Source of the DNA: a virus
DNA: 22,863 nt
IMG/VR virus record: IMGVR_UViG_3300017783_000227
Span: 1-22,863 of that record
Strand: one strand, 5' to 3'
In this document: one piece after another, positions 10,601 through 16,682 of the stretch
Position numbering within the stretch: the first letter of the stretch is position 1
Layout of the letters: every line of letters starts with the position of its first letter
Position numbers and translations under genes: made by a program
Notes under the pieces: model-generated
Databases searched by the model: none
Told to the model about the DNA's origin: nothing
The model's input: the letters and a program-made list of their open reading frames with translations, nothing else

Positions 10601-10898
10601 TGCAGTTATTGGTATATTTAGTGATGTAAACAGAATGATAGAAGTAGCAAGTAATAATGAATATGGTATAGCTCCTGCATTAGGTGCAGGTAAGCCTTAT
10701 GATTCAACATATAAACAAAAAATGGGATTAGTTGGACCAAGTGGTAGTTTAGCAGCTAATTTATATGAAATAATGTTAGATACAGGTAGTGGTAATTATG
10801 ATTACACTACAGCCAGAGCAATACGAAGGTCTTTACCTTTGCAAAATATATGGTATTTAGATGGTATCTTTGATAGGTTTGAAAAAAGTATAAGATAA
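7635..10898 (+). CDS. Large internal virion / ejection protein (gp16-like position)
   Basis: This is the largest protein in the window (1087 residues). It has several hydrophobic stretches in an otherwise basic helical protein: about residues 112-135 (GAYFIGRLTGAILDPISLFA), about 172-190 (YIVPFGTLITTGLLSG) and about 943-962 (FFTGVIFLVGLGAMVDML). Such segments suit a protein that inserts into or crosses the inner membrane during DNA ejection, as proposed for T7 gp16. No N-terminal transglycosylase motif is visible, unlike T7 gp16. Gene order supports the role, but direct homology is not shown. It overlaps both neighbours by TAATG. Confidence 0.6.
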   Translation: MANVVYKGFHKNHVSRTVDNESSLDKFFSRPKMEGIQKGFVDENSVALSYTTFTERNRKNFTPDPEYNPFYDKSLAPFVNNMDYFQFSESANETKYLMTKLQEENDIIQANPGAYFIGRLTGAILDPISLFAFSAKAFRTTQGALNVKKVTGVMAAEELYKQTIDKTREQELTYIVPFGTLITTGLLSGISRLRNKEGGEAIAKYNRDMDRLDRKETEVASTKIVDQDDIDTRIFDPNKKVKPQSVGASASAESKGVSYNDDLWDEAFVKTYTGLEDTPITPMFRAIQSKLLSVRQIATDMMDTKLIQNKNLKGIETTRSIESNIARKNLYVVDNIRAVKDAYKQYLKRVYEENNLGTPNLKNRAKNFFKKNNIMSEVEFRKQVSKSLIASNFGQGRLLPEAVNVARTVRENFFTLIGREADAEELFSLYSKLIIAGLKKTRDGMRSRGETKVVQKNKEYSLQDIMKRIDDEQARLDTINATGPLRKDFLPRYWRRDLIRKDINQFKKDLLIAFKNKGIQMTSKELDEVADDILTSMPFNKLPKNPIGKDDTFDLEFAFQASGISKHLRNRVWNFDDEHLLARGYMEDDISLIMKQYFNSIMPDIEISKVFGDVAMMGIRGPGYKPGIAQLRIEWDNFINKTAPKKTKPELRKKLIGERDQDLRDIEALRDLLRGTRGLPSDPSAALPAAIRTLKNVQNMIFLQGALSAVPDMARLIMQNGLKNTFGQILDTGFSGMSRQVMKLSKREAEMAGEALDLLFAGRASIIGNVDDMVFGMNSIERATSSANSLYFTFINMMNVWNTGVKRGSAFIGSTKILQLSERYIKGTIGKRELAKLTKIGINRDMAKRIFEQYKEFGLGVKAKETGGMKINRIARSDTWADREAANAFSNALRQEIRTTIVTPDKADVPLWMNSQLGGVLSQFKKFGMAATQAILMRGLQERDQNFFTGVIFLVGLGAMVDMLRTRAFDRDYSKKKLGDKIASAIDRSAVIGIFSDVNRMIEVASNNEYGIAPALGAGKPYDSTYKQKMGLVGPSGSLAANLYEIMLDTGSGNYDYTTARAIRRSLPLQNIWYLDGIFDRFEKSIR

Positions 10899-13426
10899 TG
10901 GCATTACAAATAAGTGATACAACACCTAAAAATCAATATACAGCTACGTCTGGACAGACTACATTTGCTGTTAGTTTTGAATTTTTTGACGTAGCAGATT
11001 TAAAAGTTTTCAATGGTACGACACTCCTTACTTATGACAACTCACCTTCATCTGCATCACAATACAGCGTAATTGGTGCAGGTGTAACAGGTGGGGGATC
11101 TATAACACTAGGTGGCTCAGGTGCTACCCTGAATGATGTTATTACCATTATTAGAGATGTAGCTATTGCTAGAACTTCTGACTTTCCAGTATCTGGTAAT
11201 TTTCCAATACAAACTCTAAATACAGAATTAGACAAGATTGTTGCTATGATGCAACAGTTAGAAGAAAAGTTTTTAAGAACATTACAATATCCTGTAACTA
11301 GTACTACAACCTTCAATGCAGATTTACCTGGAGAGCTGATTGCAAACAAAGTCCTTGCTATTAATAGTTCTGGTGATGGATTTGATGCTACTCAAGAACT
11401 GGGTGTATTTAGAGGTAACTGGGCTGCAAGTACAAGTTATAACAAAAGAGATTTAATTAAAGACACATCCACAAATAATGTATTTATTGTATTAGAATCA
11501 CACACATCATCTGGTTCTCAGCCTCTTACTACAAATGCAAATAGTGCAAAATATGAATTAGTAGTAGACGCTGCAACAGCTACTACGTCAGCTACAAACG
11601 CTGCTAGTTCGGCATCTGCAGCATCTACTTCAGCAAGTAACGCAGCGGCATCAGCCACAACTGCTACAACTAAAGCAACTGAAGCTGCTACATCAGCAAC
11701 TAATGCAGCGACATCTGAAACTAATGCAGGAACATCTGCAACAACTGCTGGTACACAGGCTACAAATGCAAGTAACTCAGCGACAGCGGCTGCTTCGTCT
11801 GCAACAACTGCATCTACACAAGCCTCTACTGCAACTACAAAGGCTTCTGAAGCATCTACATCTGCTACAAATGCAGCAACTTCTGCCTCTACAGCTACAA
11901 CTCAAGCTACTAATTCTGCTAACTCAGCTACTGCTTCTGCTACTTCTGAAACTAATGCTGGTAATAGTGCGACTGCCGCAGCTACATCAGCAACTAATGC
12001 TAGTAATTCTGCGACAGCTGCCGCAAATAGTGCAAATGCTTCAGCCACAAGTCAAACTGCTGCTGCTTCAGCACAAACTGCTGCTGAATCTGCAAGAGAT
12101 AGTGCTTTAGCTTCTTTTGATAGTTTTGATGACAGATACTTAGGACCAAAGAGTTCAGATCCTACTGTAGATAATGACGGAAATGCTTTGGTTGCTGGTG
12201 CTTTATATTTTAATTCTAGCTCTGGAGCTATGAAAGTTTACACAGGAAGTGCATGGGTAGATGCTTATAGTTCAGGAACTACTTTCTTAACAAAGTCAAA
12301 CAATTTATCTGATTTACCAAATGCAGGAACTGCTAGAACTAATATGGGTGTAGCTATTGGATCTGATGTCCAGGCTCATAGTTCAGTATTAGATGCAACT
12401 ACTTCTTCTTATACTACAGCTTTAAATACAAAGTTAAGTGGTATTGAAACAGGAGCAACAGCAGACCAGACTGCTAGTGAGATAAGAACACTTGTAGAAA
12501 GTGCCAGTGATAGCAACGTGTTTACTGATGCTGACCATACAAAATTAAATGCTATAGAAGCAAGTGCAACTGCCGATCAAACAGGTGCAGAGATCAAAAG
12601 TGCATACGAAGGTGAATCTAATACTAATGCTTTTACTGATGCAGAAAAAACAAAATTATCTGGTATAGAATCTTCTGCTACAGCAGATCAAACTCAATCA
12701 GAAGTAACTGCTTTAGTAGAGTCAGCTGCTCTAGATATGGGTAGTAACGATATTACAACTACAGGTAAAATTAAGTTTGCAAATATGTATGCACAACTTA
12801 GTGATTTACCTAGTGCTACTACTTATCATGGTATGTTTGCACACGTTCATGCAACAGGTAAAGGTTACTATGCTCATGGTGGTGCATGGATTGAACTAGC
12901 AAATAACAGTCAATTAGGTGCATATCAAACAACATCTGGTTTAAATGGTGCGGTTGATACACATTTAAATCAATCAACTGCAGCAACTGGTGAAGTTCTT
13001 AGCTGGAATGGTAGTGATTATGATTGGATTAGTAATGCAGGTTTTTCAAATTCAGATTTCGATAATAGATTAGCAACCAAAACAACAGCAAACTTAACAG
13101 AAGGTTCTAATCTTTATTATACTGATGAAAGAGTAGACGATAGAGTATCTAGCTTAATAGTAGCAGGAAACAATATTACTACTGCTTACAATGATACTGC
13201 AGGAACTCTTACTATTAACTCAGCAGGAAGTGGCAACACATCAAGTCCTGAAATTTATGGGTTTGTAGTAGATCAAGCTACAGGTAGTTTATCAGTAACT
13301 ACAACAAATGGTGGACAAGATAATATTAGTTCATCAACGTATGCAACATTTGATGATGTTGTGTATGCATCAACAGGTTTTACTTGGTCTGTAACAGCAT
13401 CAGGTGAATTAAGAGCAACAATATAA
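10898..13426 (+). CDS. Tail fibre protein with T7-type N-terminal attachment domain
   Basis: The 842-residue protein starts with the T7 tail-fibre N-terminal domain (about residues 1-130: a Tyr/Thr-rich start, FEFFDVADLKV, GGSITL, IIRDVAIARTSDF, then LNTELDKIVAMMQQLEEK), which fixes the fibre to the tail. A small W-x-x-x-T-x-Y module follows (about residues 172-220, GNWAASTSYNKRDL). Then comes a long Ala/Ser/Thr stalk (about 225-405), three copies of a 37-residue repeat containing ATADQT (about 512-611), and beta-rich C-terminal modules. It probably forms a trimer that contacts the host. It is the last gene coupled by TAATG to the ejection cassette. Confidence 0.85.
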   Translation: MALQISDTTPKNQYTATSGQTTFAVSFEFFDVADLKVFNGTTLLTYDNSPSSASQYSVIGAGVTGGGSITLGGSGATLNDVITIIRDVAIARTSDFPVSGNFPIQTLNTELDKIVAMMQQLEEKFLRTLQYPVTSTTTFNADLPGELIANKVLAINSSGDGFDATQELGVFRGNWAASTSYNKRDLIKDTSTNNVFIVLESHTSSGSQPLTTNANSAKYELVVDAATATTSATNAASSASAASTSASNAAASATTATTKATEAATSATNAATSETNAGTSATTAGTQATNASNSATAAASSATTASTQASTATTKASEASTSATNAATSASTATTQATNSANSATASATSETNAGNSATAAATSATNASNSATAAANSANASATSQTAAASAQTAAESARDSALASFDSFDDRYLGPKSSDPTVDNDGNALVAGALYFNSSSGAMKVYTGSAWVDAYSSGTTFLTKSNNLSDLPNAGTARTNMGVAIGSDVQAHSSVLDATTSSYTTALNTKLSGIETGATADQTASEIRTLVESASDSNVFTDADHTKLNAIEASATADQTGAEIKSAYEGESNTNAFTDAEKTKLSGIESSATADQTQSEVTALVESAALDMGSNDITTTGKIKFANMYAQLSDLPSATTYHGMFAHVHATGKGYYAHGGAWIELANNSQLGAYQTTSGLNGAVDTHLNQSTAATGEVLSWNGSDYDWISNAGFSNSDFDNRLATKTTANLTEGSNLYYTDERVDDRVSSLIVAGNNITTAYNDTAGTLTINSAGSGNTSSPEIYGFVVDQATGSLSVTTTNGGQDNISSSTYATFDDVVYASTGFTWSVTASGELRATI
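11570..12108 (+). repeat. Ala/Ser/Thr low-complexity stalk region in the fibre gene
   Basis: About 180 residues consist almost only of Ala, Ser, Thr and Asn, in short heptad-like units such as ATSATNAATS and ETNAGTSATT. The DNA is correspondingly repetitive but imperfect, with synonymous drift between units. This resembles stalk regions of lambda Stf-type side fibres, which form elongated trimeric coiled coils. Unit number is likely to vary between related phages. Confidence 0.7.
12431..12730 (+). repeat. 111-nt (37-residue) tandem repeats in the fibre
   Basis: Three units start at 12431, 12542 and 12653, exactly 111 nt apart. Each opens with KL(S/N)(G/A)IE followed by ATADQT; the first two units end with FTDAD/EKT and the third stops after about 26 residues. 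Similar ATADQT units are common in tail fibres of unrelated phages. The nucleotide sequences have diverged, so this is an old duplication or one shuffled in as a block. Confidence 0.8.
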
Positions 13427-14390: not shown

Positions 14391-14615
14391 ATGTCAAAAA
14401 AAATATTAGTAAATAATGTTCTAAGAGATGCTACTGATGAAGAATTAACTCTGGCGGAAGCAGATAAAATACAAGCAGAAGAAGAAAAAGCTGCATATGA
14501 TGCAGCTGTATCTGCAGAAAATTCTGCATTAGCAAGTGGTAATACTAAGTTATTAGACTTAGGTTTAACACAAGAAGAAATCACTGCTCTTACAGGTTAT
14601 GCACCTTCTGAATAA
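14391..14615 (+). CDS. Small acidic protein after the fibre genes
   Basis: This 74-residue protein has an N-terminal VNNVLRDATDEEL element, a central Ala/Glu-rich helix and a C-terminus LGLTQEEITALTG that resembles a helix-turn-helix-like end found in many small proteins located after tail fibre genes. Some of those assist fibre assembly, but no evidence for this is seen here. AAGGAG lies just upstream of the ATG. The stop TAA overlaps the ATG of a 12-codon ORF (TAATG). Confidence 0.55.
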   Translation: MSKKILVNNVLRDATDEELTLAEADKIQAEEEKAAYDAAVSAENSALASGNTKLLDLGLTQEEITALTGYAPSE

Positions 14616-14653
14616 TGTGTGAATTTTGTAATGGCGAATGTGTTTGTAGGTAA
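14615..14653 (+). CDS. 12-residue four-cysteine micro-ORF, coupled at both ends
   Basis: The frame reads MCEFCNGECVCR then TAA. Its ATG shares the A of the preceding TAA, and its own TAA shares its last A with the ATG of the following gene, so it fills the gap between two genes exactly, with no untranslated base. The cysteines are arranged C-x2-C-x3-C-x-C, which could bind one zinc or other metal ion. No Shine-Dalgarno is present, so translation would rely on re-initiation. The coupling on both sides is the argument that it is translated. No function is assigned. Confidence 0.45.
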   Translation: MCEFCNGECVCR

Positions 14654-15018
14654 TGCCTAGTCTTTCAGATAAAACTGAAATAGGCTTACCTCTCAAAAAT
14701 CTATTAGGATTATTAGGTGTTACTGCAACTGCAGTATGGGCATATTTTGGTGTCATTGAAAGACTTAATAATATAGAAACTAGAGCTACTCTATTTGAAG
14801 CTGATCTGGTAAAAAATGCAGATCAAACTCCTATAGATCAGGAACAGTTTATGCTTTTAGAATTTGTATCAGAACAAGTAGAAGGTATGTCTGAAGATCT
14901 AGAAAACATGGCACATAATAAGGTTAATATTATGAGATTACAAACTGATGTAGAGAAAGCCCTGGAAGATATAGAAGAACTAAAAGATAAAGTAAGAGCA
15001 AACGGATATGATAACTAA
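14653..15018 (+). CDS. Membrane-anchored coiled-coil protein of the lysis cluster
   Basis: The 121-residue protein has one hydrophobic segment (about residues 13-34, LPLKNLLGLLGVTATAVWAYFGV) followed by a long acidic helical region with heptads (about 35-117). One N-terminal membrane anchor plus a periplasmic coil is the layout of an inner-membrane spanin (Rz-like). It is also compatible with a holin-associated protein. It lies in a run of small membrane and secreted proteins before the lysozyme, and overlaps the next gene, which has a signal-like N-terminus, by 11 bp. The spanin role is inference only. Confidence 0.55.
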   Translation: MPSLSDKTEIGLPLKNLLGLLGVTATAVWAYFGVIERLNNIETRATLFEADLVKNADQTPIDQEQFMLLEFVSEQVEGMSEDLENMAHNKVNIMRLQTDVEKALEDIEELKDKVRANGYDN

Positions 15019-15226
15019 AGTAATTATAGCATTATTATTGTTTTCACAAGGCACTATGATTGAACACACTGTAACAGATGGTATTAAAGATTGCCTTGAA
15101 AAGAAAAGAATCATTGAACGCAATATGCAATCAGATACTGCAAGAGTATCATGTGCTAAAGTTGAAGCACAAATAGAAACTATAGAAGGTGTTGAATTTA
15201 TAAGATCAATGAGTAAAGTAAAGTAA
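15008..15226 (+). CDS. Small exported protein with a cysteine pair
   Basis: The 72-residue product starts with a signal or anchor-like segment (MITKVIIALLLFSQGT) and then has a charged helical body with only two cysteines, C29 and C49, in the pattern DCL-x18-C. If exported, these could form a disulfide. No lipobox is visible, so it is not a typical lipoprotein o-spanin. It overlaps the 121-residue gene before it by 11 bp and the next gene by TAATG. A later gene in the same cluster (15688-15894) has a similar layout. Confidence 0.5.
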   Translation: MITKVIIALLLFSQGTMIEHTVTDGIKDCLEKKRIIERNMQSDTARVSCAKVEAQIETIEGVEFIRSMSKVK

Positions 15227-15525: not shown

Positions 15526-15691
15526 ATTAGATAAAGATATCCTATTAATCAAAAAGGATATCGAAGTTATTAAAAATAATCATCTTAAACATATTGAATC
15601 TGATGTATCTATGATTAAGAAAGTCATGTGGTCTGTTGGTTTCCTAGTATTTTCTAACTTACTAGCTATTATAATGACACAAATAAAGTGA
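15497..15691 (+). CDS. Short coiled-coil plus C-terminal membrane segment (XhlA-like layout)
   Basis: The 64-residue protein has a helical coil (about residues 7-42, INRLDKDILLIKKDIEVIKNN) followed by a C-terminal membrane segment (about 43-61, VMWSVGFLVFSNLLAIIMT). Bacillus XhlA and related holin-associated proteins have this order, and they assist lysis. Similarity is in layout only. Its TGA stop overlaps the GTG start of the next gene (GTGA). Confidence 0.5.
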   Translation: MVTQSERINRLDKDILLIKKDIEVIKNNHLKHIESDVSMIKKVMWSVGFLVFSNLLAIIMTQIK

Positions 15692-15894
15692 AGTTTTATT
15701 TAATTATTTTATTCTGTGTTCAATCATTAACATCCCCTTTAGAAGAAAGTTGTGTAGCAGAACCGCTATATGAACCATTTAATAGTATACCAGATTGTCT
15801 TGCATATGTGGATAACTTTAGATACAGTTTAAGAAATAACGAGGATTTGTATGTAACAGGTTTCTGTACACAAAAGGATTATGACACAATATAA
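15688..15894 (+). CDS. Small exported cysteine protein
   Basis: The 68-residue product starts at GTG 15688, overlapping the preceding stop. It opens with a signal-like segment (MKFYLIILFCVQSL). The mature part has cysteines C22, C37 and C60, with a DCL-x21-C pattern recalling the 72-residue protein at 15008-15226. It probably reaches the periplasm and may carry a disulfide. The hydrophobic stretch ends in LFC, which is a poor lipobox. It overlaps the lysozyme start by 14 bp, so a lysis role such as an outer spanin component is possible but unproven. Confidence 0.45.
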   Translation: MKFYLIILFCVQSLTSPLEESCVAEPLYEPFNSIPDCLAYVDNFRYSLRNNEDLYVTGFCTQKDYDTI

Positions 15895-16306
15895 TAATTT
15901 AAAAGAGAGGATTAAAGAGCATGAAGGATATTGCGAAACTGTTTATAAAGATACACTGGGATTTGAAACTGGTGGCTATGGACATAAGATCATACCTGGT
16001 GAGGATATACCGACAGACAGAGATGGATGGGAAAATTTATTTGAGAAAGATTTTCAAAATGCAGTTGATGGTGCTTCGAGGATTCTTGATGGTTATGATA
16101 TTAATAACACAGCTCGTGAAGTTATTATCGAAATGGTTTTTCAAATGGGTGAAGGTGGTGTATCTAAATTCAAAGGTGCTTTATCTAATCTTAAAGAACA
16201 AAGGTATTCAGAATGTGCCACAGAAATGTTAGACTCAAGATGGGCAAATCAAACACCGAACAGGGCAAAAGCTCTAGCCTCAGTAATGGAAGAGATCAAT
16301 GCTTAA
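15881..16306 (+). CDS. Endolysin, T4-type lysozyme (GH24)
   Basis: This 141-residue muramidase should cleave the glycan strands of the host cell wall. The catalytic triad of T4 lysozyme (E11, D20, T26) is matched with identical spacing by E15, D24 and T30 in KEHEG-x7-DTLGFETGGYGHKI, followed by the G-x-G-H of the family. The C-terminal helical lobe contains the expected MVFQMGEGGVSKFK and a typical SRWANQTPNRA end. It has no signal peptide, so release requires a holin; the next gene, overlapping by 8 bp, supplies a candidate. It is somewhat shorter than T4 lysozyme (164 residues). Confidence 0.93.
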   Translation: MTQYNNLKERIKEHEGYCETVYKDTLGFETGGYGHKIIPGEDIPTDRDGWENLFEKDFQNAVDGASRILDGYDINNTAREVIIEMVFQMGEGGVSKFKGALSNLKEQRYSECATEMLDSRWANQTPNRAKALASVMEEINA

Positions 16307-16682
16307 TTTACTCGGACCTGTCGCTGGAGCAGTCTTTAAAACAATTGATAAAGTTGTCGATAATAAGGGAGAGGCTGACAAACTTAAAGCTAAAGTACAA
16401 GAAAAGATTATTGCAGGAGAACTAGCACACTTAGAAGGTGCTGCTAAAATTATACAAACAGAAGCACAAGGAGGATTCTTACAAAGAAACTGGCGACCAA
16501 TAATGATGTTGGTCTTTGCTGGTTTAATGGTAGCTCATTGGTTTGGATTTACTGCACCCAACATACCTGAATCTGTACAGAACTCTCTATTGAATATTAT
16601 TTTAGTGGGAATCGGAGGGTACACTGTTGGAAGATCAGCCGAAAAAGTTGCAGACAGATTTAAAGATAGTAAAAAGGGGTAG
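16299..16682 (+). CDS. Holin-like membrane protein (Holin_3TM-type)
   Basis: The 127-residue protein has an N-terminal LLGPVAGAVFKTIDKVV segment, a charged helical middle, and a WRPIMMLVFAGLMVAHWFGF membrane segment (about residues 64-85). A second membrane segment follows (about 95-117, LLNIILVGIGGYTVGRSAEKV). The R-x-W-R-P element before a membrane helix and the G-Y-x-x-G-R-S-x-E-K end are typical of the 3TM holin superfamily found beside phage endolysins. It should form pores that release the lysozyme. GGAAGAG lies before the ATG. The last 56 bp overlap the phosphoesterase gene. Confidence 0.75.
   Translation: MLNLLGPVAGAVFKTIDKVVDNKGEADKLKAKVQEKIIAGELAHLEGAAKIIQTEAQGGFLQRNWRPIMMLVFAGLMVAHWFGFTAPNIPESVQNSLLNIILVGIGGYTVGRSAEKVADRFKDSKKG

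Follow-up and report, generated by a model that had tools for sequence, protein, structure and literature searches.

The window, which is the whole 22,863-nucleotide stretch of viral DNA analysed here, carries on its forward strand a 12-codon micro-gene (ATG TGT GAA TTT TGT AAT GGC GAA TGT GTT TGT AGG TAA) at positions 14615-14653, recognized by reading of the open reading frames and by its conservation in relatives. The ATG occupies 14615-14617, the TAA occupies 14651-14653, and the product is MCEFCNGECVCR. A first-pass annotation had described a four-cysteine 12-mer here that shares one base with each neighbour and leaves no base of 14391-15018 outside a coding sequence, and the frames bear this description out. 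The upstream gene (14391-14615, forward strand) encodes a protein of 74 amino acids with no assigned function, and most relatives have other genes in its place; its TAA lies at 14613-14615 and forms a TAATG stop-start joint (14613-14617) with the micro-gene. A second joint of the same kind (14651-14655) leads into the downstream gene, c1 (14653-15018, forward strand), whose ATG starts at 14653 and whose product of 121 amino acids belongs to phrog_20984, a family of unknown function; by eye, it has a likely N-terminal membrane segment and a coiled coil.

Further along the same strand lie the lysozyme-like gene of the neighbouring lysis cassette (15881-16306), read as an ORF and annotated as lysozyme in H16, and a gene for a holin with three trans-membrane segments (16299-16682; matches to GTA_holin_3TM, PF11351, and phrog_3427). 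Beside the lysozyme and holin genes, two frames (15008-15226 and 15688-15894) encode small proteins of no assigned function that appear to be secreted and contain two to four cysteines, and a tail-fibre-like protein at 10898-13426 contains long near-repeats rich in Ala, Ser and Thr (ATSATNAATSETNAGTSATTAG..). Of the 45 phage records matched by the c1 protein, 40 are Pelagibacter phages, and the window therefore most probably derives from a SAR11-type phage. SAR11 bacteria are among the most abundant in the ocean and depend on reduced sulfur, which is scarce there.

Among the 17 further joints inspected in the window, 5 overlap by one base in the same way, and a double TAATG joint would be expected by chance alone in roughly 9% of cases. 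With overlaps this frequent, the double joint says little on its own, and the case for a real gene rests on conservation rather than on the joints. The earlier argument that the arrangement would be rare by chance is thus weaker than claimed as far as it relies on the double coupling. A Shine-Dalgarno sequence is absent before the micro-gene in the window, and its translation is therefore presumed to start by coupling. At 12 codons the gene is well under the length limit of standard gene finders, which miss it.

Conservation of the micro-gene in viral contigs

We scanned IMG/VR viral contigs with a DNA pattern that fixed Met1, the four cysteines, Glu8 and a hydrophobic codon 10, leaving codons 3, 4, 6, 7 and 12 and the stop at codon 13 free. 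At least 119 matches were obtained, and 113 of the 119 listed are complete ORFs with a length of exactly 12 residues. Among the matches listed, these define family A, with the consensus MC[ED][YFLHV]C[NGS]GEC[IVL]C[RK]-stop, in which three features from outside the pattern are kept, namely Gly7, Lys/Arg12 and a stop as codon 13. In 257 Gb of bacterial and archaeal genomes the identical pattern matched 46 times, in ORFs ranging from 2 to at least 200 residues in length; only two of these ORFs are 12 residues long and none of the 46 matches has the family A motif, while a stricter pattern for the full family A ORF had no match in the same 257 Gb. The difference in 12-residue ORFs between listed viral matches and control corresponds to a Fisher test value of 6e-31, which is indicative, as are p-values here generally, since the loci are not fully independent. 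Large viral proteins with the segment CDPCEGECLC (L264, L272, L281, L285) were set aside, as they belong to long repeat proteins and the resemblance looks coincidental. A pattern search combined with a bacterial-genome control can find micro-genes of this kind.

The matches listed comprise 51 distinct DNA versions, for which pN/pS is 0.149 overall and 0.245 on the pattern-free codons 3, 4, 6, 7 and 12, both values being pairwise counts made without a tree rather than formal dN/dS. Across these versions, Gly7 is encoded by GGC, GGT, GGA and GGG while the amino acid remains invariant, and the residues conserved besides cysteine are Glu3/Asp3, Gly7, Glu8 and Lys/Arg12. The synonymous bias for which the first-pass annotation had proposed a test is therefore present, and no frameshifted copy, which it had named as grounds for rejection, was seen; relatives that lack the gene lack it cleanly. 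Within the ORF, alifold found no consensus RNA structure and synonymous recodings have the same folding energy, which rules out an RNA element. As change is mostly synonymous and RNA structure is absent, conservation acts at the level of the peptide. Comparison of the copies shows a reading frame, a stop position and cysteines that are conserved across unrelated contexts under peptide-level selection, and we consider it almost certain that the micro-gene is a real gene under selection.

Variants, genomic placement and occurrence in phages

The cysteines were preset in the pattern searches; only the analysis of the slot immediately before c1, which used c1 alone as bait, did not require the motif. 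A micro-ORF with a cysteine quartet is present in 27 of 63 non-redundant slots before c1, where it encodes 22 different peptides, and at only 2 of 659 ORF starts elsewhere in these loci. The 5' slot of c1 is a hot spot for cysteine micro-genes. Alongside family A we recognized a sister family B of 13 residues, MC[EK]C[CN]E[GDE][YF][DEN]C[IV]CK (for example MCECCEGYDCICK), and the two occur together in tandem, overlapping, or as fusions in one frame (MCECCEGYDCICKQKLICGCNGECVCGK, MCKCNEDYDCICKGKTMCEYCGGECICR, MCECCEDYDCICKGVIMCEYCNGECVCR). The fused form has 28 residues and the variants span 13-28 residues, in addition to an N-terminally extended form (MCTCCEHCNGECICR). Peptides of other sequence also occupy the slot before c1 (MINPKCDCGKDECVCQ, MDCKCEGSCVCGK, MINPCPDCGATTKADCKCPDECESCGA). 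Slot peptides contain four to eight cysteines, with two or more cysteine pairs in all of them, and mostly carry an acidic-C-x-C-basic end or CPxCG-like pairs, CPDCG and CESCG both being represented. At least two CxC or CxxC pairs are found in every variant, and among the 51 listed DNA versions the CxxC pair is followed by N in 33, by G in 17 and by S in 1. In L060 (2844-3000) three cysteine-rich frames lie head to tail before c1, namely B, A and then ..DNCIVCGCNPCTCDDECDSCGA, the last without an ATG.

Family A is not confined to this slot; it is also encoded before a tail-completion/neck gene (phrog_26), a gene with a weak FmdB-like match, a gene for a secreted lysis-region protein and a small-terminase-like gene (by eye), as well as after tail-fibre-assembly or lysozyme-like genes. 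The first-pass annotation had proposed looking in related phages for an ORF of 10-20 codons with the same cysteines and joints; the relatives keep both, and their joints are mostly TAATG or ATGA. The stop of the micro-ORF is at -1, -4 or 0 from the next start in 132 of the 159 listed cases with a downstream ORF, and an AAGGAG-type site with five or more matching bases precedes 62 of the 96 near-adjacent listed cases that are not coupled upstream. In the neck slot, the micro-gene is present in L306-L310 and absent from their close relatives L311-L325, in which the flanking genes are mostly joined by one TAATG, a pattern that we read as clean gain or loss. Each of 15 viral records searched whole has one copy of family A; L195 has the neck slot filled and the c1 slot empty, as does the contig common to L032 and L119. 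Copies with identical 39-nucleotide sequences occur in unrelated contexts (the window/L001 and L158; L008 and L115), which suggests transfer of the micro-gene alone, but we do not claim this as proof because, with codon bias this strong, two copies could plausibly be identical by chance (roughly estimated at about 3% per pair).

Family A recurs in many uncultured ocean phages related to SAR11 phages. A search of 12 cultured records over their whole length did not find the 12-mer, and neither blastn of the 42-nucleotide consensus nor tblastn of the 28-residue fused form against 50,697 phage records returned anything relevant. Given its absence from the cultured records and from the nucleotide search of the phage collection, the 12-mer is not essential for SAR11 phages. 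A tblastn search with a 27-residue form beginning MINPCPDCG gave only chance matches, in DNA polymerase and thymidylate synthase genes. In the cultured phages HTVC105P (L286 2879-2998) and HTVC021P (L289 2813-2935) the c1 slot encodes an annotated hypothetical protein of 39-40 amino acids that ends in CKCKGKCKCK or CKCKDKGKCQCK; matching proteins in Skadi and HTVC024P are without those cysteines. HTVC027P gp12 (L406 405-563) is small and zinc-ribbon-like, and its cysteine part begins MCEFCGH in the pattern MCEFCGH..CAHCDC. Infection by HTVC027P raises host cysteine/methionine, DMSP, sulfur and iron genes (PMC12753301), a response that is no more than suggestive context for the role of the peptide.

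Predicted function of the peptide

Taken together, the family is real and, as far as our database and literature searches reach, previously unannotated: a literature search found no description of the peptide, Pfam has no match for the 28-residue fused form or for relatives of 33-45 amino acids (the 12-mer is too short to scan), and PHROGs have none at threshold for the fused and longer forms scanned. In the PDB, matches of the fused form to arthropod toxins and a protease inhibitor (E 0.9-6) were judged to reflect chance similarity in cysteine composition, and a search with the 33-residue form gave no match. Predicted families of small phage genes have been catalogued (Fremin et al. 2022, as cited in PMC11323111), and the micro-gene is likewise a small phage gene that length filters miss.

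We propose that MCEFCNGECVCR is a putative cytoplasmic metal-thiolate peptide, with a probability of roughly 0.6. N or G after a CxxC pair, followed by G, has the shape of a zinc-knuckle turn. The metal knot suggested in the first-pass annotation gains support only indirectly, from the two cysteine pairs per variant, the N/G after CxxC and the lack, by eye, of an export signal. Of the short peptides compared in PMC8028610, those with CXC and CXXC give thiolate complexes of the greatest stability, and the same paper cites tetracysteine peptides of 13 residues that bind Zn and Ni. The peptide would be made late in infection with the structural and lysis operon, its translation starting either at a ribosome site of its own or through stop-start coupling, and would stay in the reducing cytoplasm; because no export signal is apparent by eye, its thiols would be reduced and free for metal. 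The C-x2-C and C-x-C pairs, linked by the N/G-G turn, may then fold round a single metal ion, with Zn(II) the likeliest, to give a two-knuckle tetrathiolate of minimal size. The fused 28-residue forms, and the longer relatives that occupy the same slot, would be versions of this design with two sites or a larger build. The least certain step is the role, which could be late metal/thiol buffering or that of a cofactor that carries metal for a membrane or assembly protein encoded nearby; a specific part in metal/thiol buffering is unlikely on present indications, and so, to the same degree, is one in lysis or assembly.

The peptide resembles a minimal metallothionein or zinc knuckle, but profile tests fail and membership is not established. 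Like metallothioneins it is very rich in cysteine (4 of 12 residues), carries CxC and CxxC pairs and has no obvious export, and the 12-mer lies within the metallothionein range of at least about 30% cysteine in CxC, CxxC or CC motifs. However, it is a quarter to a fifth of their length, probably has a single metal site instead of a cluster, and has fixed N/G-G and K/R-stop features. The CxxC-[NG]-G half resembles a knuckle of the CPxCG, rubredoxin-type ribbons (Pfam Zn_ribbon_3, DZR), and the first pair, C-x2-C-[N/G/S]-G, fits a CPxCG-type turn. The second pair, however, is C-x-C, only three residues separate the pairs, and there is no beta-ribbon; none of the zinc ribbon or knuckle profiles reaches threshold, and the sub-threshold matches are confined to HTVC027P gp12.

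Conservation of the cysteines would also be expected from redox activity or from binding to a protein partner. A peptide that works without metal, through reversible disulfides or by docking on a phage or host protein such as the membrane/coiled-coil product of 14653-15018, would account for the strong preference for the slot before c1 and for the isolates in which a likely helical protein in that slot has a CKCKGKCKCK tail, and any tetrathiol is redox-active. Nevertheless, the same peptide precedes neck, FmdB-like and small-terminase-like genes, so that no single partner is shared, and the lack of an apparent export signal makes stable disulfides unlikely; we regard this reading as rather improbable.

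It is less probable still that translation of the micro-ORF, and not its product, controls the next gene through stop-start coupling, by cysteine-starvation attenuation or as an arrest peptide. Leader uORFs of cysteine attenuation are likewise very short and cysteine-rich, and they directly precede a gene to which they are coupled; the tight coupling to the next gene, the need of SAR11 for reduced sulfur and the rise of cysteine/methionine and DMSP genes in HTVC027P infection are in keeping with such control. Unlike those leaders, the micro-gene has conserved residues other than cysteine, no run of Cys codons and no conserved RNA structure; it precedes unrelated genes that differ between contexts and are phage genes, with no fixed sulfur gene among them, and fused 28-residue and 13-28 residue variants exist. 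That random sequence happened to spell four cysteines between two genes can practically be dismissed: TAATG joints are indeed common in this genome, but the 113 of 119 listed ORFs of exact length, the empty full-ORF search, the pN/pS values and the 27 of 63 filled slots refute it.

The conserved 12-codon gene is a clear and testable case in phages related to those infecting an abundant ocean bacterium. Should its product indeed bind a metal, that product would rank among the smallest metal-binding proteins encoded by a gene, with a bearing on phage metal and sulfur handling in a host for which reduced sulfur is both necessary and scarce. More tentatively, and with more doubt than confidence, the 39-bp gene may be one of the smallest protein genes known to move independently, present as one copy per genome, gained or lost as an exact unit at TAATG joints, hosted by unrelated operons, and encoding a one-metal thiolate peptide for late metal/thiol handling in SAR11 phages.

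Other small frames were observed in related material. Metallothionein-like ORFs of 33-59 amino acids with many cysteines (e.g. MKICIKCQCACHCDTSCIWCGCVGCTHEETKSE) are present in related SAR11 phage contigs (L003 1849-1950, L023 1789-1899, L029 3902-4039, L031 1747-1848, L033 1350-1505 and L035 1614-1793). Another conserved micro-ORF, MCDCKTDEDCVCRLR, is preceded by a clear ribosome site in L019, L022, L026, L029, L033 and L035, phages in which the c1 slot is empty.
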